This document shows, piece by piece, positions 1,044-22,896 of a DNA stretch of 23,175 nt (position 1 is the stretch's first letter; each line of letters begins with the position of its first letter). Origin of the DNA: a virus; IMG/VR virus record IMGVR_UViG_3300048586_000464, positions 1 to 23,175 of that record. The stretch is one strand, 5' to 3'. A program made the position numbers and the translations under genes. A model generated the notes under the pieces. The model saw nothing but the letters and a program-made list of their open reading frames with translations, made no database searches and was not told where the DNA came from.

Positions 1044-4000
1044 CTACGCGTCGGCTGTCGGCCAGCGCAGTTTTCCGCGACCGATGCGCAAGGCTTCTAC
1101 AAGCCTAGTATTACCCGGCAATCGACCCGAAAATAGGCTGGGCTTCGGATCGACTGCCGACCTCTTGAATGCGGCGACTCTTTGGTAGTCGGGCGTCGTC
1201 AGCCAGGTGCGCCCATCGCCCTCGTCAGTGACAACCCGATAAAGACCTGCAGGCGGTGCAGTGGCGATGTCGAGCAGACGTTTGTAGTGTTCGACCGACC
1301 ACTTCTGGATACCGCCGCTGAGGGCCTCGGTACGAAAGCGTGCCCATAGCGCGGCGGTGTCGGGCGTCGGCCAGTCACCGGCATCTGTATAGGCCGTAAT
1401 CTCGTCAGATTCGAGCCAGGCCCGCATCTCGGGGGGCGTGACGAAGATCGGTTTGGCATCTTCGATCGCGGCCATAGCCGCACGCCGCGACGGCAGGCCC
1501 GCGCGGATCAGCATCGCCATCATGAACTGCGGGACGCCAGTTTCGACCGATCCAGCCGCACCGCCTGCCACCGTGTCCGGCGACCAGCCGAGCGACATTC
1601 GGCGGGTGCGGACGGCTTCCAGCGCCCAGACCAAGCGATAGGTGAAGGCCTCCTCGACCGCGCGCATGTTCTGCGGCCCAATCTTGGCGACATCCTCGCC
1701 AGAAACCCAGCTTCGCAGGATGACTTTCCAGTTCGCCGGCAGCGCTTTCGCCTTATCGGGGATGAACGGCCTTATGAACAGCAGACGCTCCCCAAGGCCA
1801 CCGAGTGCATCGACAAGCTCGTCTATGTCACCGCTCAGCGATGCCGCGTCAGCACGGTCGAGCAGCGCAGCCAACTCGTCGGCCATTGCGTCGATCGACA
1901 GGCCTGCCTCAAGTCCAACGCCCATGGCAAAATGCCCGCGACGCGCCGACGCCGTGGTGGCTTTCCAGATGAGATCGGCGCGCGCTTCAAACACTTTCTT
2001 GTGCAATGGGGCGACGTCCTCGTCTTCGCGGGCGATCTGACGTGCCCAAAGTGATCCTTTGAGCGCTTCATCCAACAGCTTCGGCAGGTCAGCGCGATCG
2101 GCATCCAGCGCTTCAATCAGGCCGAATACGGTCGCGTCGAGGCGCTCGACGATTTGCGATAGCGGTTCCTCATCGACGCTTTCTTCCTCGTCGCCGCCAC
2201 CGCCCTCATCCTCATCGCCTACATCGACATCGGTACTGTATTGCGCGCCCGCAGCGAGGCGCTCGGCGACTGCAGCTTCTTCCTTCGGCGATCTCCATGC
2301 TTCGCGGGCATTGGCGAGGTATTCCCACGCATCGTCGCGATCCAGAACGCCTTCACGTGACAAGCGATCAATGATCTCGGCGACGATCTGAATCAGGCCA
2401 CTTTTCAACGAGCGGGCCTTGGCGGAGGCGACCAGCTTTCGCCACTCCCTCTTTCGCCAATCGATCTTGTCGAACATGACGTGCAAAATCAGGCCTTCGA
2501 CGTCCACGAAGGCGCGCCCAGCACGGCCAGCGACGTTTGCAAACTCCTCGCCTTTGATCTTCTCTGACGCCCGATACAACGCTGGCACCAACAAGACGGC
2601 GGCGTTAAGGTTGAGGCCTTGCGACAAGGTCGGTGAAGCGACGATTACTTTAAGGACCCCCTCAGACAGAAGGGCTTCCAGCTCACGCAGGAACGGGCTT
2701 GGCAGCCGGCCATGGTGAATGGCGACGCCTGCTTTCAAGGAGGCGACGGCCGGATGGTCCTCGCCCAACCATTCCTTGCCCACCTCCAAGGCGCGCGCGA
2801 TCGACGCTTCGTCTTCCAGCAGTGAGTCCAGATAGCCACGCTTGCAAAGGTCCACGACTTGTTTGCCGTAACTCTCGACCCAATTCGCCTGGGTAGAGAA
2901 GATCAGGGTCCGTTTGCCCTGGCTCGCGAACTCCCACGCCGCGAACAAGGCGAGGTGCGAGTTCTTGCGCGGATAGGGCTTCTTCTCTCTCCCGAGTGCC
3001 GCTTTCTCGACAACGAACTTGTCGAGAAAGGGACCATCATCGTCGAGATCGAGCCGGAGCAGCCCATCATTACCCCGCCAGGTGAGTGCGCCGAACCGCT
3101 GTCTGGTGGGGCGCCAGTCGGAACGCACCGGCTCGCCCGGCTCGTCCGAGCGGATCCATGCGGTGAGATCGTCCAACTCGTCGCCGCTGGGCAGGATCGC
3201 GGATAGACAGACAATCCTGCGTTCGTTCGCATCCGCGCGCCGAAGCAGACGTTGCACCAATGTCTCGTAGCGGATTTCGCGCTCGCTCGGGCCAATCATG
3301 TGACCTTCGTCGAGGACAATCAGGCCGACGTCATCAATCACCGACGAATCGCTTCTCAACGCGAAGTCGAGCTTCTCGGGCGTCGCGATGATGACCTCGC
3401 GGGTGCGCAAAGCGTCTTCATCGCCAGCCGAAAGGCCGCTGGCGCCATAAAGCGAGGAAACGCTGAAACCTAGCGGCGCGAAGGTTTTTCTAAATGATCG
3501 CTCGGTCTGGGCGGACAAAGCGCGCAATGGCGTTACGATCAAAACTCTGCGCGCCGATGACAGGGTCATCAATGCGGCGATCTCAGCCACCCGCGTCTTA
3601 CCGGCGCTGGTAGGCAAGGCCACGACGAGATCGTCGGTGACATCGGTTGAACGCCGTGCCGCCTCGCGCTGTGATGGCCATAGCTCCACCTCAGAGGTCT
3701 TGCGCGCAAAAAGCGACGAAATGAACAGGCGCCGCAGATCGGGGTACATCTCTTCTGTCCCCTCAGGCGGCTCGGTCGGCAACGTCTGATGCAGCGAATG
3801 CTCCCAGAGGTCGTCGATCAAGTGGCGGCAGAGGTTTGAAATCCACCAAATCGGCACATTCTCCGCATTGTCCGCCAGTCTGATCGCATTGGCGAGCAAC
3901 GCCCGTGCGGTCTCGATCGGCTCGGGCTCGCCGGTCTCGAGAGCGAAGTCAAAATGCGCTAGAGCTCGGCAGATCGTTGTATTGAGGATGGTCGCCAGCA

Positions 4001-4556
4001 CTTCGTCGACGTCTGGTTCTTCCCCTCGTAGTGCCTCGGCGATCTGCTCATCGCTATGAACGTCTTCGTCAAGCCATTCGCGAACGAAGCCTCGCAGTTG
4101 TCCGAGATCGCGCAGGATCAGGTGTCGGATCGCTGCTTCACCCGGCGAGGCGTTGAGGTCGCCTGCCGTTTCGTTAAAGAGCGAATAGGCAACCGCCGAA
4201 AAGCCGGCCAGGTGGTAGGCGGCGGCGGCGATCATGCGACGGAAGCCGCGGTCGGGCGCTTCCGGGTCGCCGTTGCGCACCAAGGCTTCAAACGCATTGG
4301 CCGCTCGCTCAAACGCTTTGCTTGTCAGCTCCGAAGCGCCAGCTTGGGAACGCAGGGCCATCGCGCCCCGAAGCAGGGCAAAGCCGTGCTCGGCAAGATC
4401 AGTTTCGATTGTCGCACCGAGGGGCGGCGCATTGGGTGGCAGCACGCCGTCCACGCGCATCAGCGACCAGGCCGCACCGCGATAGAGGAGACGCCCAAGG
4501 ATACCGTCGGTGGTAGCTGTCGCCAAGAATACCGTCAGTTCGTCAATCGTCTCCAA
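1044..4556 (-). CDS. hamB: HamB, SF2 helicase of a Hachiman anti-phage system
   Basis: This 1170-residue superfamily 2 helicase has all the core motifs in order: a WPSQ element near 293, Walker A ALPTSAGKT (313-321), VTPLRAL (341-347), ATPEKLD (391-397), DEGH (416-419), LSAILPS (451-457), LIFSTQ (551-556), ASPTLSQGLNL (640-650) and NVAGRAGRA (674-682). About 290 N-terminal residues precede the core. An acidic linker rich in Asp, Glu and Gly (about 775-798) separates it from a long helical C-terminal region. In known Hachiman systems HamB is the DNA-tracking sensor that holds and then releases the HamA nuclease. The start is a TTG that overlaps the end of hamA by 14 nt, with GAGG about nine bases upstream. 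Pairing with a DUF1837 gene makes the Hachiman call firm. Confidence 0.87.
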   Translation of the reverse strand: METIDELTVFLATATTDGILGRLLYRGAAWSLMRVDGVLPPNAPPLGATIETDLAEHGFALLRGAMALRSQAGASELTSKAFERAANAFEALVRNGDPEAPDRGFRRMIAAAAYHLAGFSAVAYSLFNETAGDLNASPGEAAIRHLILRDLGQLRGFVREWLDEDVHSDEQIAEALRGEEPDVDEVLATILNTTICRALAHFDFALETGEPEPIETARALLANAIRLADNAENVPIWWISNLCRHLIDDLWEHSLHQTLPTEPPEGTEEMYPDLRRLFISSLFARKTSEVELWPSQREAARRSTDVTDDLVVALPTSAGKTRVAEIAALMTLSSARRVLIVTPLRALSAQTERSFRKTFAPLGFSVSSLYGASGLSAGDEDALRTREVIIATPEKLDFALRSDSSVIDDVGLIVLDEGHMIGPSEREIRYETLVQRLLRRADANERRIVCLSAILPSGDELDDLTAWIRSDEPGEPVRSDWRPTRQRFGALTWRGNDGLLRLDLDDDGPFLDKFVVEKAALGREKKPYPRKNSHLALFAAWEFASQGKRTLIFSTQANWVESYGKQVVDLCKRGYLDSLLEDEASIARALEVGKEWLGEDHPAVASLKAGVAIHHGRLPSPFLRELEALLSEGVLKVIVASPTLSQGLNLNAAVLLVPALYRASEKIKGEEFANVAGRAGRAFVDVEGLILHVMFDKIDWRKREWRKLVASAKARSLKSGLIQIVAEIIDRLSREGVLDRDDAWEYLANAREAWRSPKEEAAVAERLAAGAQYSTDVDVGDEDEGGGGDEEESVDEEPLSQIVERLDATVFGLIEALDADRADLPKLLDEALKGSLWARQIAREDEDVAPLHKKVFEARADLIWKATTASARRGHFAMGVGLEAGLSIDAMADELAALLDRADAASLSGDIDELVDALGGLGERLLFIRPFIPDKAKALPANWKVILRSWVSGEDVAKIGPQNMRAVEEAFTYRLVWALEAVRTRRMSLGWSPDTVAGGAAGSVETGVPQFMMAMLIRAGLPSRRAAMAAIEDAKPIFVTPPEMRAWLESDEITAYTDAGDWPTPDTAALWARFRTEALSGGIQKWSVEHYKRLLDIATAPPAGLYRVVTDEGDGRTWLTTPDYQRVAAFKRSAVDPKPSLFSGRLPGNTRLVEALRIGRGKLRWPTADA

Positions 4557-5466
4557 GGTCTTCGGCCTCCTGATACATGGCCGCGATGAAGTCCTGGTGA
4601 TCTTCGACGTGGATGTTCACGACGTATTGGTCCCGGTTGGTCCCTGTGGCGTCGAGATCATCCTTCAGCGAGGCATGGGCGCCGTTGCCTGACACGGTGA
4701 AGAGCATGTGGTCGATGCGATCGGCACGAAGGGACTTCAGTCCTACCTCGTCACGGAGGCTGCGGCCCAACGCGCTGTCTTCCGGGTCGTTGCTCTCCAG
4801 CAGCCGGTTGGCGACGAACAACAGGGAATCGGGCGTGCATCGGCCGCTGTCGCGGTCGAGGACCTTGCGCGCGCTCGTAACCGTGGCCTTGCCGAGCACC
4901 TTATTGCTTTTAGCTTCGCCTTTCAGGAGCCAGAGCTTCTCGCCAGCCCCATCATATCCGGCGCCGATGAAGTCGTCGCCACGCATGGCCATGTTGCGGC
5001 CGTCTTTATAGCGTAGGCGGCGCACTGGGACGCGGAGGCCGATCTCTTCCTCGACCAGCTCGGTCGCGAGAATTTCGCCTAGGTCGCCGGAGCGGCCCCT
5101 CGGAGTTTGAGGCATAGCTTCTTTGAGGATACTGGCGGCAAATTTGAAGCCGAGCCGATCGACGTCTTCGGCGATGCGTTCAAGTCGATCGTAGTGCGAG
5201 CGGATGGTCTTGGCGAGTTCATCGCGAATCTCATCTCGGCCCCTGTCCTTTTCGACATAGACCCAGTAGTGCTTGCGCTTATTCTTTTCTTTGGTGGCAT
5301 CGCACCACCTCTCGTACAGTCCCATGCAATCCGCCTTTGCCATCGCGCAGTGCAGTGTGACCACATCGACCACCCACACAAGCTGTAGCGGCCGCTTTGC
5401 AACAATTTCTTGTAACTGTCGGTGCGCTCTATGGCCGCCAACGCCGCTCCCAGCAGGAGGTCCCAT
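4543..5466 (-). CDS. hamA: HamA, DUF1837 nuclease effector of a Hachiman system
   Basis: The 307-residue protein carries the DUF1837 signature: SGDLGEILATELVEE (126-140), RGDDFIGAGYD (162-172) and the E-x-K nuclease element LKGEAKSN, with E184 and K186 as likely catalytic residues. In characterised Hachiman systems HamA is a DNA nuclease held by the HamB helicase and unleashed on cellular DNA during infection. I chose the start at 5466 because AGGAGG lies four bases upstream (5471-5476). However, the first 40 residues look low-complexity and unusual. A start at 5343 (MAKADCMG) would give a 266-residue protein, but it has no ribosome site. hamA is directly followed by hamB in an overlapping operon. 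GC content is visibly lower than in the phage structural genes. Confidence 0.83.
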   Translation of the reverse strand: MGPPAGSGVGGHRAHRQLQEIVAKRPLQLVWVVDVVTLHCAMAKADCMGLYERWCDATKEKNKRKHYWVYVEKDRGRDEIRDELAKTIRSHYDRLERIAEDVDRLGFKFAASILKEAMPQTPRGRSGDLGEILATELVEEEIGLRVPVRRLRYKDGRNMAMRGDDFIGAGYDGAGEKLWLLKGEAKSNKVLGKATVTSARKVLDRDSGRCTPDSLLFVANRLLESNDPEDSALGRSLRDEVGLKSLRADRIDHMLFTVSGNGAHASLKDDLDATGTNRDQYVVNIHVEDHQDFIAAMYQEAEDLGDD

Positions 5467-5590: not shown

Positions 5591-6127
5591 TCACTCGAAA
5601 ACCTGGAGTTGAAAATGTGCTGGAAATCTTCGCGGGTGTCTCGGCGAGCCGTTGGCGTTGCGAAGGACAACGTGTAGCTGCGCGTTGCCACAAGCTTCGA
5701 CGGCGGCTGCGGCAAGGTTCTGCCATCTGACCCGCCCGCACAGACCTCCGTAGGCAAGAACTACCGTCGCGGACAAGGCGGCACATTTGCCGATATAGTG
5801 AAGGTTTCGATTCGAACGTTCGACATCCAATGGTATTTGCTTTGGATCTGTTGCGCGAAAATCCATGACATTCACCAAGAACAACCCGCTGTATCCTAGT
5901 CTCTGTGAATGCCGCGTGAGTTTCCTAGAGGTTGCATCATCAACAAGGTTCGACGCGGAAGACGGATTCATGCATAACCACGTAACCATTTCACCATTGG
6001 CCCAGCGACGGCTGAGGTATGGCCTATAGTTCCCGCACTCGGAGAAGATGGCCGAGCCTCGAACTCCTGGTAGCAGTTCCCATGTTGATCCGAGCTCACG
6101 ATCAATCTCAGACGTACCGTGTATCAT
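5591..6127 (-). CDS. DUF1643 family protein
   Basis: The family pattern is clear: a SAIFSECGNYRPYLSRRW opening, then WLCMNPSSASNLVDDATSRK, then GYSGLFLVNVMDFRATDP, and a later VVLAYG strand. This matches DUF1643, a small domain of unknown biochemical activity found in phages and bacterial accessory regions. I start it at 6127 (MIHGTSEI), giving 178 residues, because the family usually begins shortly before this conserved block. A longer frame opens at 6247 (MDPQLVRR) with an Ala/Cys-rich, poorly conserved-looking 40-residue extension and no ribosome site. It lies on the same strand as hamAB with a 124-bp gap after it, so it may be co-transcribed with them or simply be a cargo neighbour. Confidence 0.72.
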   Translation of the reverse strand: MIHGTSEIDRELGSTWELLPGVRGSAIFSECGNYRPYLSRRWANGEMVTWLCMNPSSASNLVDDATSRKLTRHSQRLGYSGLFLVNVMDFRATDPKQIPLDVERSNRNLHYIGKCAALSATVVLAYGGLCGRVRWQNLAAAAVEACGNAQLHVVLRNANGSPRHPRRFPAHFQLQVFE

Positions 6128-6247
6128 GTTGATCGTTCCATTATGAAGAAGTTGCTCGCCCATGATCTTCGCAAAGGAGGGCGCTTTCGCCAATGACTGC
6201 TCTTGCGCTGCTGCGCTGCAGCAGCGGCGAACAAGCTGAGGGTCCAT

Positions 6248-6556
6248 AATGGGCCGAGTCCGTCGATCGCCCCACCCCCAGCCGTGGTTCCTCCCAGGCC
6301 CTAACTGTATACGGGGGGGCGCAGCGCGGCAGTTGGCTAGCGTGAGGCGATTTCACCGGGGAATCCAGGCGGAAGCCACTCTGGCGCTGGCATCCGGAAT
6401 TCTGACTCAAGATCAAAGCGTTACGGAATCACGATCTGGCAAAGGTGGATTCTTTGCCGGAAGCCACGCGAGCCACTCAGAGGAAGCCACCTTGGCCAGA
6501 AGCCACCAAAGGAGGCCGCCTGCTTCGAAGGCGTTGAATCCATGCATGTTTTCTAT
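6248..6556. repeat. Non-coding stretch with repeated AGCCAC / GAAGCCAC motif
   Basis: No convincing gene lies here. GAAGCCAC occurs four times in direct orientation, at 6372-6379, 6460-6467, 6483-6490 and 6499-6506, and a fifth AGCCAC occurs at 6471-6476. The last four fall within 47 bp. The spacing is irregular. This could be a binding-site cluster (iteron-like) or remnants of repeats at a cargo boundary. Confidence 0.4.
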
Positions 6557-6729: not shown

Positions 6730-7992
6730 ATGGACCTCGTCTTCGCGCCGAGCCAGGTTGAGTCCTGGCCGATTGCCCGGCTGCGCCCCTATGCCCGCAA
6801 TGCGAAGATGCATGGCGACGACCAGGTGGCGAAGATCGCCGCCAGCATGGCCAAGTTCGGCTGGACCGTCCCCTGCATGGTCGCCGACGATGGCGAACTG
6901 ATCGCGGGCCACGGCCGGGTGCTGGCCGCGACCATGCTCGGGCTGACTGAAGTGCCGGTGATCCGGCTGAGCCACTTGGACGAGGCCGAGCGCCGGGCCT
7001 ACCGGATCGCCGACAACAAGCTGACCGAACTGGGCGAATGGGACGAGGCACTGCTGCGCGACGAGATCGCGGGGCTGCTGGCCGAGGATTTCGACCTGTC
7101 GCTGCTCGGGATCACCGACGAGGATTTGGATGCCTTGCTGCGGGATCCGGAGGCGCTGGGCGGGGATGGCCCGGTCGAAGGCGAGGACAATGTGCCCGAG
7201 CCCCCGGCCACGCCGGTATCCGCGCAAGGCGACCTCTGGCAACTCGGCCCACACCGCCTGATCTGCGGCGACAGCACCGCGGCCGACGTGGTCGGGCGGC
7301 TGCTGGGCGATGTTCGCCCCCTGCTGATGGTGACCGATCCGCCCTACGGCGTGGAGTATGACCCGTCCTGGCGCAACCAGGCAGGCGCGGCCAAGACCAA
7401 GCGCACCGGCAAGGTGCTGAACGACGACCGCGCTGATTGGAGCGAGGCATGGGCGCTGTTCCCGGGCGACGTCGCCTATGTCTGGCACGGCGCGCTGCAC
7501 GCGGCGACCGTGGCCGACAGCCTGAACTCGGCAGGTTTCGCAATCCGCTCGCAGATCATCTGGGCCAAAGATCGGCTGGTCCTCAGCCGCGGTGATTACC
7601 ACTGGCAGCATGAACCCTGCTGGTATGCGGTACGCGCCAAGGGCAAGGGCCACTGGGCGGGGGACCGCAAACAGACGACGCTGTGGCAGATCGCCAACCG
7701 GGATCAGGACGCCGACACTGTGCACGGGACGCAGAAGCCGGTCGAATGCATGCGGCGGCCGATCCTCAACAACTCCAGCCCCAGCCAGGCGGTCTATGAG
7801 CCTTTCATGGGATCGGGCACCACGCTGATCGCGGCCGAGACCACGGGGCGGGTGTGCTTCGGGGTCGAATTGAACCCGGCCTATGTCGATGTGGCCGTCG
7901 AGCGCTGGCAGTCGTTCACAGGTCAGGAGGCCCTGCTGGCAGAAACGGGCGAGACCTTCGCCGCCCTGAAAGCAAAGCGGCTCGCGGCATGA
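6730..7992 (+). CDS. ParB-like/DNA methyltransferase fusion, DPPY type
   Basis: The 420-residue protein joins two parts. Residues about 11-115 are a ParB/Srx-like N-terminal domain with GELIAGHGR at 55-63 and RAYRIADNKL at 89-98. Residues about 167-395 are a beta-class amino-methyltransferase with DPPY (203-206), HGTQKPVE (332-339) and the SAM-binding FMGSGTT (359-365). DPPY is the usual catalytic motif of N6-adenine enzymes, so m6A formation on phage or host DNA is the likely activity; the target is unknown. No restriction nuclease is adjacent, so it is probably an orphan phage methyltransferase. Its TGA overlaps the next ATG (ATGA). The start lacks a clear SD, but the domain begins right after it. 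Confidence 0.85.
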   Translation: MDLVFAPSQVESWPIARLRPYARNAKMHGDDQVAKIAASMAKFGWTVPCMVADDGELIAGHGRVLAATMLGLTEVPVIRLSHLDEAERRAYRIADNKLTELGEWDEALLRDEIAGLLAEDFDLSLLGITDEDLDALLRDPEALGGDGPVEGEDNVPEPPATPVSAQGDLWQLGPHRLICGDSTAADVVGRLLGDVRPLLMVTDPPYGVEYDPSWRNQAGAAKTKRTGKVLNDDRADWSEAWALFPGDVAYVWHGALHAATVADSLNSAGFAIRSQIIWAKDRLVLSRGDYHWQHEPCWYAVRAKGKGHWAGDRKQTTLWQIANRDQDADTVHGTQKPVECMRRPILNNSSPSQAVYEPFMGSGTTLIAAETTGRVCFGVELNPAYVDVAVERWQSFTGQEALLAETGETFAALKAKRLAA

Positions 7993-9323
7993 ACGCGCCC
8001 CACCTGCCCGGCCGGATCGAACACTGGCCCCTCACCCGCCTCCGGCCCTATGCCCGCAATGCCAAGACCCACGATGCCGACCAGGTGGCGAAGATCGCCG
8101 CCAGCATGGCCGAGTTCGGCTGGACCGTTCCCTGCCTCGTCGCGGCGGATGGCGAATTGATCGCAGGCCATGGTCGCATCCTGGCCGCCGCCCATCTCGG
8201 CCTTTCCGAGGCCCCCGTGATCGTGCTGGACCATCTGACCGAGGCACACCGCCGGGCCTATCGTATCGCCGACAACAAATTGTCCGAGCTCGGCGGCTGG
8301 GACGAAGTCCTCTTGGTGCAGGAGTTGCAGGCGCTGTTGGCCGAGGATTTCGACCTCGGGCTGATCGGGATCCCCAATGACGAACTGGACGCGCTGCTGC
8401 AAGATGCCGACGACGAACGTGCGTCCATCGATGACAACACCGCGGACACCATCCCCGAGACCCCAGCCGAGCCGATCACCAAGCCCGGCGACATCTGGGC
8501 GCTGGGCGATCACCGGCTGATCTGCGGCGATGCGACCGACCCGGCCGTGGTGGCGCAGCTTATGGGCGGGGCTCAGGCGTCGCTGCTGTTCACTTCCCCG
8601 CCCTATGCGCAGCAGCGCGACTATGGCGCGGCGAAGGAGAAGGTCGGCGATTGGGATGCGCTGATGCAGGGCGTTTTCGCCGCGGCGCCGATCACCGCCG
8701 ATGCCCAGCTGCTGGTCAACCTCGGCCTCGTCCATCGCGATGGCGAGTGGCTCCCCTATTGGGAGGGCTGGGTCGACTGGATGCGCGCGCAGGGCTGGCG
8801 GCGCTTCGGCTGGTATGTCTGGGACCAGGGGCCCGGCCTGCCCGGTGACTGGAACGGGCGGCTGGCGCCCTCGCACGAGTTCATCTTCCACTTCAATCGC
8901 CAGCCTCGCAAACCCAACAAGACAGTGGAAAGCAAGCACGCAGGCGAGACCCTCGGCGGCGGCGGGCTGCGCGGGGCGGACGAGACAGTTCATCGCAAGA
9001 CCGGCTTCGGCAACGCGATCCAGAGCCACCGTATCCCGGACTCGGTGTTCAGGATCATGCGCCACAAGGGAGGACTGGGTGCCGCCGGATCGCACCCGGC
9101 CGTCTTCCCCGTGGCGCTGGTCGAGGCGGTGCTGGAGGCCTTCACAGATCCCGGCGACCTGGTGTTCGAGCCATTCTGCGGTTCAGGCACCCAGTTGATC
9201 GCGGCCGAACGCACCGGGCGGCGCTGCTGCGCGGTGGAACTCGATCCGGTCTACTGCGACGTCGCCGTGCGGCGGTGGGAGATGGCGACAGGGCGGATAG
9301 CGAACCGCCTTCAAGGCGATTAG
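7989..9323 (+). CDS. ParB-like/DNA methyltransferase fusion, TSPPY type (paralogue of the preceding gene)
   Basis: This 444-residue protein has the same design as its upstream neighbour: a ParB-like domain with GELIAGHGR (55-63) and RAYRIADNKL, then a methyltransferase with TSPPY (202-206), SHPAVFP (368-374) and FEPFCGSGTQ (393-402). The ParB parts of the two proteins are nearly superimposable (both contain VAKIAASMA and FGWTVPC), while the catalytic domains differ, with a longer insert here between SPPY and the SAM motif. SPPY-type motifs are typical of N4-cytosine methyltransferases, so m4C is the likely product. I use the ATG at 7989 because it sits in an ATGA overlap with the previous stop and starts the aligned domain; the frame is open further upstream. 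Confidence 0.85.
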   Translation: MNAPHLPGRIEHWPLTRLRPYARNAKTHDADQVAKIAASMAEFGWTVPCLVAADGELIAGHGRILAAAHLGLSEAPVIVLDHLTEAHRRAYRIADNKLSELGGWDEVLLVQELQALLAEDFDLGLIGIPNDELDALLQDADDERASIDDNTADTIPETPAEPITKPGDIWALGDHRLICGDATDPAVVAQLMGGAQASLLFTSPPYAQQRDYGAAKEKVGDWDALMQGVFAAAPITADAQLLVNLGLVHRDGEWLPYWEGWVDWMRAQGWRRFGWYVWDQGPGLPGDWNGRLAPSHEFIFHFNRQPRKPNKTVESKHAGETLGGGGLRGADETVHRKTGFGNAIQSHRIPDSVFRIMRHKGGLGAAGSHPAVFPVALVEAVLEAFTDPGDLVFEPFCGSGTQLIAAERTGRRCCAVELDPVYCDVAVRRWEMATGRIANRLQGD

Positions 9324-20084: not shown

Positions 20085-20396
20085 ATGTCCATCTTCTCGG
20101 CCGCCATTGACAACCTCTTCGCCGATCCCGCCATCGCGCGCGACGCCACCTACACCGCCGACGGTGGCGCGCCGATCCCGGTCCGCGTGGTCACGCGCCG
20201 CCCGGACGAGATCACCGGCTTTGGCGAGGCGCGTCTCTGGTCGGAGACCACGCGGGTTGATGTGCGGGTGGCGGAGGTGCCAGCCCCACGTCCCGGCGAC
20301 CGGATCGAGATCGAGGGCGAGGCCTTCCTCATCCAGGGCGAGCCGGTGCGCGACCGCGAGCGGCTGGTCTGGGCGCTGGACCTGCGTCCTGCGTGA
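20085..20396 (+). CDS. Head-tail joining protein, gpFII-like
   Basis: A 103-residue beta-rich protein (GGAPIPVRVVTRRPDEI, then TTRVDVRVAEVPAPRPGDRI, IEGEAFLIQGEP). The size, the beta-barrel pattern and the place right after the major capsid gene match lambda FII-type connectors that seal the filled head to the tail. AGGA is ten bases before the ATG. Its stop overlaps the next start (TGATG). Confidence 0.72.
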   Translation: MSIFSAAIDNLFADPAIARDATYTADGGAPIPVRVVTRRPDEITGFGEARLWSETTRVDVRVAEVPAPRPGDRIEIEGEAFLIQGEPVRDRERLVWALDLRPA

Positions 20397-21037
20397 TGGC
20401 GATGAAACTGAAGATCGAGATCAGCCCTGACATCGCCGCGCTGATGGCGGCCGAAGTCCGCGCCGGTGAAAAGGCCGTCACCACTGCCATGCGCGAGGCC
20501 GGGACCGGTCTCAAATCTGCGTGGCGGGGCCAGATCACCGGCGTGGGGCTCGGCCAACGGCTGGCCAACTCGATCCGTCTCGCCACCTATCCCAAGGGTG
20601 GCGAGAGCATCAACGCCGCAGCCCTTGTCTGGTCCAATGCGCCGGTCATCATCAGCGCACATGACACCGGGCCGCTAATCAGGGCACGGGACGGGTTCTG
20701 GCTGGCGATCCCGACCGAGGCTGCGGGCAAGTCCACGCGCGGGGGACGGATCACCCCGGGCGAATGGGAACGGCGGACCGGCCTCAAGCTGCGGTTCGTC
20801 TACCGTCGCCGGGGGCCGAGCCTGCTGGTGGCGGAGGGGCGGCTGAACACCAAGGGCCGCGCGGTGGCGTCGCGGTCGAAAACAGGCCGGGGCGTCGTGA
20901 CTGCGCCGATCTTCCTGCTGGTCCCGCAGGTCAGGCTTCCGAAGCGGCTGGATCTGGCGCGGGATGCAGAGCGGGCAATCGACGGCGTGCCGGGTCTGAT
21001 CGTGGCCAAGTGGGTGTCAAATACGGACAGGGCCTGA
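20396..21037 (+). CDS. Neck/tail completion protein, DUF6441-like
   Basis: About 213 residues from the ATG at 20396, which shares one base with the preceding stop; a GTG at 20393 and an ATG at 20402 are alternatives. It has an N-terminal helix pair (AALMAAEVRAGEKAVTTAM) and then VWSNAPVIISAHDTGPLIRA, GFWLAIPTEAAG and a basic TPGEWERRTGLKLRFVYRRR stretch. I recognise it as the phage family labelled DUF6441, found after the head-tail joiner in siphovirus clusters; the exact role (neck or minor tail) is inferred from position. No catalytic motif. Confidence 0.68.
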   Translation: MAMKLKIEISPDIAALMAAEVRAGEKAVTTAMREAGTGLKSAWRGQITGVGLGQRLANSIRLATYPKGGESINAAALVWSNAPVIISAHDTGPLIRARDGFWLAIPTEAAGKSTRGGRITPGEWERRTGLKLRFVYRRRGPSLLVAEGRLNTKGRAVASRSKTGRGVVTAPIFLLVPQVRLPKRLDLARDAERAIDGVPGLIVAKWVSNTDRA

Positions 21038-21120
21038 TGATTGCCACGCCAACCCTGCTTGATGGCTGAAATGCGCATTGCTAGCCTGATTCCATGCGTG
21101 GCCAGAGTTTGGAGCAGCCC

Positions 21121-22395
21121 ATGTCGTTCAGACCGTTCGTATTCGCCGTCGCCCTCACTGCGGCAGCTCCGGCGTTCGCCCAAGATGCCTCCCTGTCCGC
21201 GGAATTGGCTGATATCGAGCGCCAACTGACAGAGATCGACGCGCAGGCGGCACGCTACGATGGCGGCCTGATCGTCGCACTTATCGATGCACGCCGGGAA
21301 GCACTTCTGCTCGCCCGCACTCTCATTGAAAACCGGATCAACGCAGAAGCCGGTGCCGCAACCGTGGAAGTGACGATCCCGGCTGTTCAGCCAGATGAAG
21401 CGCGTGCCGCACAAATCCTCGGGGAAATGGCCGCCGCACAGCAGCGCATCGACGAAGCCGAACGTGAGGCCGCGACTGGCGGCGGCTTGATCCAGGCCTT
21501 GGCGCTCAGCCGGGCCGAGACAGAGAGGCTGACGCTGGCCCAGTTGCAGATGGGATATCTCCAGGCAAAGTACGGCATCGCGTTCCCCGTGATGCAGGCT
21601 CAGCCCGGCGCATCCGTGCCGCCTGCTGCGCCAGCAGCAGAAACACCAGCGCCTGCAGAAGATGCAGTGCAAACAGTCTCTTGGGCTGACCCGCGTTTTC
21701 CAGAGATCGACTACACTCTGGCCCCGTTCGAACAGGCTCATCGGGATGGACATGAGATTTCTGGCTGGTGGTCGATAGAGTCGAGCCGGGCCGTGGTGGA
21801 CGACAGCCCTCAAGTGATCGCGATAAATCATTCGCAGTTTCAGCCGAACAACTTTATGGGTCAGACCGCACTCGTCGCACGCTGTATCGAGGGCGAGACT
21901 GCCTTCGTGTTCGTTCAGGACGATTTCCTGATGAACGACTATCAGCGAAACTCCTTTGAGATGACCATCCGGATCGACGAGCAGCCATCGCAACAATCTC
22001 GTTGGAACAGCCTCACCAGCAACAAAGGCGCAGGTCTATTCGGACGCGATGCCGAAGCGTTCATCCGGTCGATCTATGATGCCGAGCGCCTGTTCCTTCG
22101 GCTCGTCGAATCGAATGGTCAACAGCATGACGCGCTTTTCGAACTTGCCGGAGCGCAAGATGGCTTTGAGGCCATTGCCGCCGCTTGCGGATGGACCACC
22201 CTTTCGTTGTCAGCAGACGACTACCGCGCAATTCAGACTCTCCTGAACGCCGGGGGTTTCGATGTCGGAACGCCCGATGGTCAGTGGGGCCCTGCCTCAC
22301 AGAATGCGATGCGCGCCTATCAGGCGTCGGTCGGACTGCCAGAAACTGGTGCCCCCGACCGTGCGACGCTGGAGCAACTCGGGGTTCGCCAATGA
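21121..22395 (+). CDS. Secreted accessory (moron) protein: coiled coil, VasI-like domain, peptidoglycan-binding domain
   Basis: The start at 21121 has GGAG six bases upstream and gives 424 residues opening with a signal peptide (MSFRPFVFAVALTAAAPAFA, cleavage after AFA). Next come two related helical repeats (about 28-73 and 102-148), a Pro/Ala linker (about 160-182), a VasI-like region (about 214-358: GWWSIES, ALVARCIEGETAFVFVQ, MTIRIDEQPS, ending AAACGW) and a PG_binding_1 domain (about 365-420). The product should lie in the periplasm bound to peptidoglycan. VasI-type domains are known from type VI secretion loci; role here is unknown. The codon style and lower GC differ from the neighbours, and the gene interrupts the neck genes, so it looks acquired. 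Confidence 0.78.
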   Translation: MSFRPFVFAVALTAAAPAFAQDASLSAELADIERQLTEIDAQAARYDGGLIVALIDARREALLLARTLIENRINAEAGAATVEVTIPAVQPDEARAAQILGEMAAAQQRIDEAEREAATGGGLIQALALSRAETERLTLAQLQMGYLQAKYGIAFPVMQAQPGASVPPAAPAAETPAPAEDAVQTVSWADPRFPEIDYTLAPFEQAHRDGHEISGWWSIESSRAVVDDSPQVIAINHSQFQPNNFMGQTALVARCIEGETAFVFVQDDFLMNDYQRNSFEMTIRIDEQPSQQSRWNSLTSNKGAGLFGRDAEAFIRSIYDAERLFLRLVESNGQQHDALFELAGAQDGFEAIAAACGWTTLSLSADDYRAIQTLLNAGGFDVGTPDGQWGPASQNAMRAYQASVGLPETGAPDRATLEQLGVRQ

Positions 22396-22410
22396 TCGCA
22401 GGCGGAATGG

Positions 22411-22435
22411 TTCGGGCGTGAGCCGAATGTTTTCT
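22411..22435 (+). terminator. Weak terminator-like hairpin after the moron gene
   Basis: TTCGG (22411-22415) pairs with CCGAA (22423-22427), followed by TGTTTTCT. The stem is short with one bulge available for extension. It lies 15 bp after the moron stop, as expected for a self-contained accessory unit. Confidence 0.4.
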
Positions 22436-22476
22436 CGTCAGCATGGCGAGTAACTGACACAACCAATAGACGGATC

Positions 22477-22896
22477 ATGCCCACCACCCGCGAAACCATC
22501 CTCGCCGCGCTGCACGCGCGGCTTTCGGCGTTACCCGCGACCGCCCTGCGCGGTGACGTGCTGCCGGAACGCGTGCCCGCTGCTGGCCTGCTGATCCTGC
22601 GCGACGGCGAGCCGGGAGAGCCAGAGGTCACGCTCTCGCCCCTGCGCTACCACTACCAGCACCGGGCCGAGATTGAAGCGGTCGTGCAGGGGGCCGCGCG
22701 TGACTTGGCCTTCGACACACTGATCGCCAGCATCGGCGCGACGATTGCGGCCGACCGGACGCTGGGTGGTCTCTGCGACTGGACCGAGGCTGACGCGCCC
22801 CGCCCCGTCGATCTGCCGGTCGAAGGGGCCGTGAGCCTGAAGGCGGCGGTGATCACCGTTGTGCTGCACTATTCCACGGCCGACCAGCTGGCCTGA
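22477..22896 (+). CDS. Tail terminator-like protein
   Basis: A 139-residue protein with RETILAALHARLSALPATAL at the N-terminus, then a GLLILRDGEPGEPEVTLSPL strand region and a C-terminal VSLKAAVITVVLHYS strand. This is the usual shape of tail-terminator (lambda gpU-type) proteins, which cap the tail tube. Position between the neck genes and the tail tube gene supports this. The sequence evidence alone is modest. The ribosome site is weak. Confidence 0.65.
   Translation: MPTTRETILAALHARLSALPATALRGDVLPERVPAAGLLILRDGEPGEPEVTLSPLRYHYQHRAEIEAVVQGAARDLAFDTLIASIGATIAADRTLGGLCDWTEADAPRPVDLPVEGAVSLKAAVITVVLHYSTADQLA

Follow-up and report, generated by a model that had tools for sequence, protein, structure and literature searches.

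The window analysed here is the full 23,175-base stretch of IMG/VR record IMGVR_UViG_3300048586_000464, a partial temperate siphophage that is a prophage of Rhodobacteraceae (purple/marine bacteria). Its genes run in the order TerL, portal, S49 protease, decoration, capsid E, attachment protein, DUF6441, VasI/PG-binding gene, tail terminator and tail tube, with TerL and portal named by sequence and position. The VasI/PG-binding gene (21121..22395, + strand, as are all features of this region) encodes 424 aa and was delineated by open reading frame, Pfam, PHROG, structure model, hhalign and dN/dS. It is bordered on the left by a DUF6441 / phrog_6367 neck gene (20393..21037; Pfam and PHROG profile matches) and on the right by a phrog_4204 tail terminator (22477..22896; PHROG match). 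A GGAG resembling a ribosome-binding site lies immediately 5′ of the start at 21121, and an alternative ATG at 21094 would place merely 9 extra residues ahead of the signal peptide. Elsewhere in the window, the prophage carries a complete Hachiman defence pair on the − strand (1044–5466), with the HamB helicase at 1044–4556 (PADLOC, 1646 bits) and HamA (DUF1837, E 2e-111) within 4543–5466. Two tandem genes for ParB-like/DNA methyltransferase fusions (phrog_498) stand side by side at 6730–7992 and 7989–9323 (+).

The product begins with a signal peptide (residues 1–20, MSFRPFVFAVALTAAAPAFA/QD; 21121..21180), read from the sequence, that has a type I AxA cleavage site and shows relaxed constraint. 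Residues 25–151 (21193..21573) form an N-domain, modelled with four helices, in which two related helical hairpin repeats have a GGLI motif in common. The repeats align with a score of 54.5, as high as none of 1000 shuffles, and no Pfam family was matched in a search of this domain, which the earlier note on this DNA had overlooked together with its repeats. An Ala/Pro-rich linker (residues 157–183; 21589..21669), predicted to be disordered and relaxed in dN/dS, leads to a VasI-like beta domain (residues about 187–358; 21679..22194; phrog_1848, hhalign), and a PG_binding_1 domain follows at residues 365–420 (22213..22380). Model confidence is about 90 (pLDDT) for the beta and PG-binding domains, about 80 for the helices and <50 for the signal peptide and linker.

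The PG_binding_1 assignment is secure in Pfam (48.9 bits against a cut-off of 23), and endolysin gp144/3bkh and SleB also match the domain in their own PG-binding parts. A structure search of the product against the PDB gave no match with E <0.001; the PG domain fits SleB in a short match (TMt 0.75), and the beta domain is similar to phage proteins that are themselves uncharacterised, V9LYR6 of Vibrio phage VH7D among them (TMt 0.73), and to nothing of known function. Two cysteines, Cys255 and Cys356, are invariant among 36 sequences and would fit a periplasmic disulfide. Based on the signal peptide, the PG domain and this cysteine pair, the product is very probably located in the envelope, and its export, as proposed in the earlier note, and its anchoring to peptidoglycan are strongly inferred.

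The VasI-like character of the beta domain, also proposed in the earlier note, is upheld by profile comparison but not by the Pfam threshold. As a single sequence, the protein matches VasI (PF11319) at residues 248–358 with 14.4 bits, under the Pfam gathering cut-off of 26.5. However, phrog_1848 matches residues 207–358 (E 1.2e-18), and comparison of the 35-member family with VasI-domain proteins by hhalign yields 99.5% and E 5.3e-23 over residues 207–360. The proteins of PF11319 and phrog_1848 are likewise secreted and have in common with the window protein the beta domain, a DD(S/T) near its start and a C-terminal aCxW. The window protein differs from them in missing the Pfam cut-off, in bearing an N-terminal repeat domain and a PG-binding domain in the same chain, and in having no T6SS locus. 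PF11319 is matched in 17 of 298 Rhodobacteraceae genomes, where the short flanks of the genes hold housekeeping genes (gyrB-, DAHP synthase- or purB-like) or transposon genes. No T6SS genes were recognised in these flanks or near any copy read of the window gene's family. VasI genes in Rhodobacteraceae thus appear to be mostly orphans, and the family name is therefore not evidence for a type VI secretion system.

The interval between the DUF6441 gene and the tail terminator varies widely among related phages. We fetched IMG/VR loci by similarity to the tail terminator and kept the 67 in which both borders are present. The interval is filled in all 67, with 258 to 3228 bp of varied sequence, and the window gene occupies it in only one of them (L099), the other 66 holding other sequence. 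Addition of loci fetched for the window gene itself gives 92 intervals of 261 to 3834 bp, counted from the stop codon. The slot corresponds to 21038–22476 of the window and to the same interval in L003–L131, and no empty one was seen among the IMG/VR loci read. Empty slots, with the flanking genes adjacent, were seen in 11 phages of R. capsulatus and in Sc-Yong805-1; the R. capsulatus phage RcDormio has a 4-nt overlap between genes 12 and 13. The cargo includes toxin–antitoxin genes of the ParDE, YhaV/PrlF, RES and Xre types, transport genes (chromate transport, cation efflux, LysE and MFS exporters), PLD, HEPN and Schlafen-type proteins, transposases and a few PADLOC candidates. In the 67 loci, 94 cargo frames were called, of which 63 run opposite to the structural genes; these counts come from a simple codon-usage caller and are approximate, with no frame called in 12 loci.

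The slot is a swappable cargo hotspot in a group of temperate siphophages of Rhodobacteraceae. The earlier note had regarded a secreted protein amid the neck genes as out of place; its location is real, but the oddity is accounted for by the site being a general cargo hotspot of the phage group. The same note's view of the gene as a moron inserted amid the neck genes agrees with the empty site in the R. capsulatus phages and with the single occurrence among the 67 loci.

A putative private promoter was found by phylogenetic footprinting (21059..21087), with a −35 element TTGATG (21059–21064), a 17-nt spacer and a −10 element TAGCCT (21082–21087); a strict sigma-70 consensus scan detected no promoter upstream of the gene. 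The pattern TTGNNN-N17-TANNNT is present in 24 of 27 copies, 51–66 nt upstream of the start, against 1.7% expected from shuffled sequences, a contrast that is not a probability because the copies are related. The promoter-like pair lies 59–62 nt upstream in most close copies and 51–66 nt upstream in diverged ones, and the footprint extends to copies that are just 61–66% identical in protein. A sequence scan also revealed a terminator-like hairpin with a T-rich tail 3′ of the gene (22408..22428), the conservation of which is not visible in other copies. The GC3 of the gene is 0.645, compared with 0.763–0.875 in eight neighbouring genes. Overall dN/dS is 0.05–0.08; the N-, VasI and PG-binding domains have the lowest values and only the signal peptide and linker are elevated, so the gene is functional and its partner is probably conserved.

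All phage copies with both borders occupy the same slot, even where capsid and portal belong to a different type (29–48% identity), and the identity of the gene is uncoupled from that of its flanks. In L011 the capsid is 92% and the gene 66% identical; in L003 the attachment protein is 52% and the gene 88% identical. Close copies of the gene are also present in the genomes of Gemmobacter caeruleus N8 and Tabrizicola aquatica. Since the slot is shared but gene identity does not track the flanks, the gene has probably moved between phages. By its position and promoter footprint, the gene forms a transcription unit of its own. The promoter footprint, the atypical composition, the absence from close and distant relatives and the selection on the sequence together argue that the gene is almost certainly a moron, that is, lysogenic-conversion cargo.

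Outside phages, the gene family is sporadic (15 of 397 Rhodobacteraceae genomes). Homologues with about 58–61% identity adjoin, in divergent orientation, the WYL gene of BREX-1 systems (L018, L033, L034, L036–L041, L043, L044 and L048), with BREX replaced beside the WYL gene by a type IIG R-M system in L035 and by a DISARM-like DrmD in L045. The surroundings are of three kinds. In the first, the homologue has on one side the divergent WYL gene with BREX-1 (type IIG R-M in L035, DrmD in L045) behind it and on the other side, wherever that was read, VirB-type T4SS genes, including on the conjugative plasmid NZ_CP115770. In the second, a small lipoprotein gene intervenes between homologue and WYL–BREX-1 (L033, L034, L043, L044 and L048). 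In the third, five copies, 40–46% identical, stand alone in chromosomes in housekeeping surroundings with no defence neighbours (L148–L152). BrxC occurs in 21 of the 397 genomes and together with the gene family in 4 (Fisher p 0.005), a co-occurrence that rests on few independent events, the BREX-side copies being two closely related lineages. A role for the product as a BREX subunit was considered and rejected because the gene is absent from 17 of the 21 BrxC-bearing genomes and is also found beside type IIG R-M or DISARM-like genes or alone. PADLOC has no model for the family.

The N-domain has relatives of its own. A lipoprotein on an Enterobacter plasmid is 40.6% identical to it and has a different C-terminal domain; its gene lies in an island with Abi, an ABC-3C system, a cytosine methyltransferase gene and colicin genes. 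An N-domain lipoprotein is also encoded on an Aeromonas plasmid, with TraD-like and DUF4400-like genes a few kb away. A search of named phages with an N-domain relative found no match. On an Azospirillum plasmid (L184:6461–7498), the gene for a protein of about four GGLI-type helical repeats is followed by another gene, separate from it, whose product is similar to the C-terminal domain found in the Enterobacter and Aeromonas relatives, and the repeat domain is therefore modular.

In our proposed model, the PG_binding_1 domain should tether the product to peptidoglycan in the periplasm, where the flexible linker and helical N-domain would make it protrude or oligomerise and the VasI domain, of the disulfide type, may bind a ligand. 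Expression in the lysogen would be driven by the gene's own promoter. The envelope would thereby be altered such that competing mobile DNA (phage genomes and possibly conjugative DNA) enters less well, and such exclusion at the peptidoglycan would complement intracellular systems such as BREX, R-M, DISARM or Hachiman. This reading draws on the homologues that adjoin BREX-1, type IIG R-M and DISARM-like systems, on the co-occurrence with BrxC, on the N-domain relative in the Enterobacter defence island and on the Hachiman pair in the window prophage. Modification of the envelope or a block to superinfection, both raised in the earlier note, are plausible roles. These associations suggest weakly that the anchored protein is an obstacle to incoming foreign DNA; protection of the lysogen envelope by a peptidoglycan-anchored periplasmic protein, probably through exclusion of mobile DNA, is a tentative assignment to which we give somewhat less than even odds. 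For the explanation as a whole, a moron in a swappable slot with a role in envelope exclusion, we estimate a probability of about 0.4. A more ambitious version, which seems rather unlikely, is that a peptidoglycan-anchored anti-entry protein with a modular, non-Pfam helical N-domain forms an outer defence layer that travels beside interchangeable intracellular defence systems on plasmids and in the phage neck-gene hotspot.

Several observations weigh against exclusion, among them the two closely related lineages of BREX-side copies, which represent few independent events, and the lack of a PADLOC model for the family. The remaining ones also favour a near-equal alternative, in which the product is a general envelope-fitness factor that stabilises or protects peptidoglycan (for example by gripping the wall or keeping hydrolases away from it), benefits any host and has no antiviral role, mobile elements carrying it as they do metal-resistance genes. 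The stand-alone chromosomal copies in housekeeping surroundings have no defence neighbours; the slot also takes toxin–antitoxin, chromate transport, cation efflux and LysE exporter genes, so placement there does not imply defence; and dN/dS is low in all domains, strong purifying selection with no rapid change being unlike many arms-race genes. Such slow evolution, together with the mixed cargo and the stand-alone copies, argues for a broader envelope role, which we consider only slightly less probable than exclusion. Against it, the family is very sporadic and is found repeatedly on mobile elements and beside defence systems.

Three other roles are less compatible with the data. The earlier note had suggested that the protein interferes with type VI secretion, and its VasI domain might equally protect from it. 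The Pfam name of PF11319, the hhalign match to VasI-domain proteins and a periplasmic location, where many T6SS effectors act, would fit, but the Rhodobacteraceae VasI genes are orphans in the flanks read, none of the family's copies read adjoins T6SS genes, and the window gene is conserved under strong purifying selection rather than diversifying; we regard this role as improbable. Only marginally less likely is an accessory function in DNA transfer, by which the protein would help or regulate T4SS-mediated conjugation or provide entry exclusion for the carrying plasmid. A copy does sit between BREX and VirB-type T4SS genes on NZ_CP115770 and in L154, and the Aeromonas lipoprotein is encoded near transfer-type genes, but most copies, in phages and chromosomes, have no T4SS nearby. 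A virion or tail component could be expected from a gene within the structural operon and on the same strand. The empty sites and the signal peptide led us to reject this role, which is very improbable given also the promoter footprint: the gene is missing from related phages with otherwise the same neck and tail genes, and the relatives checked at the same site (the R. capsulatus phages and 66 of the 67 loci) lack it, so it is not a conserved virion component.

The idea of morons, or lysogenic-conversion genes, is reportedly due to Hendrix and others. The window gene has in common with them a putative promoter of its own, an atypical composition, insertion between otherwise adjacent structural genes, absence from relatives and a product predicted to target the envelope. 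It differs in its slot, which has a neck gene on one side and the tail terminator on the other and is filled in all 67 tail-terminator-selected loci, and in the lack of a strong shared terminator. Envelope superinfection-exclusion proteins are prophage-encoded and exported. The window protein is putatively similar in these respects and in its expected expression in the lysogen, a likeness drawn from prophage origin and predicted export rather than from sequence or fold.

Only single-domain VasI relatives were recovered when named phages were searched with the window protein. The VasI-only proteins of Klebsiella phages (ST11-VIM1phi8.1, QBQ71467.1; 3LV2017) are likewise encoded by prophages outside the core genes, but the one read (L020) is a single domain of about 167 aa with 27% identity and no PG-binding or helical domain. 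In these Klebsiella prophages, the single-domain VasI genes lie beside the tape measure gene or near attR (L020:4926–5429; L021 near 6001–6426), which suggests that secreted proteins of the VasI type turn up repeatedly in phage cargo. Citrobacter rodentium prophage PhiSM carries a ‘T6SS VasI family protein’, also outside the core genes (PMC6456863). A 2026 survey of BREX mentions no periplasmic or peptidoglycan partner (PMC12839542), and a survey of Rhodobacteraceae prophages does not use the terms ‘moron’ or ‘hotspot’ (PMC8224337). Morons are a known kind of gene; in a limited search of open-licence papers, we did not find the three-domain architecture, the N-domain or the slot described.

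The hotspot belongs to a widespread group of Rhodobacteraceae phages and offers a source of candidate genes for accessory functions and defence. The gene itself represents a new family of three-domain periplasmic proteins, which is under strong selection and is tied outside phages to a T4SS-plasmid slot in which BREX, type IIG R-M and DISARM-like systems take one another's place; if exclusion is its function, intracellular defence would have a partner at the level of the wall.

Three further observations concern the neighbourhoods read. The Rhodobacterales T4SS plasmid/ICE-like slot (L018, L033–L048 and L154–L160) keeps the WYL gene constant, with BREX-1, type IIG R-M and DISARM-like systems interchanging behind it; in Rhodovulum marinum (L155:3147–6610), BrxC breaks off at about 633 aa, with transposase- and recombinase-like genes behind it, and the BREX system there is apparently disrupted. 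L182 (NZ_CP077204.1), labelled an Aeromonas plasmid, contains Mu-like phage genes (GemA, terminase and DUF935), with an N-domain gene in broken frames just ahead of a lysozyme gene. Finally, two other junctions of the phage structural region, each usually about 30 bp or less, are smaller, secondary slots: terminator–tube, which is 378–995 bp in L007, L008, L067, L111 and others, and capsid–attachment gene, which is 865–1185 bp in L014, L027, L062 and L098.
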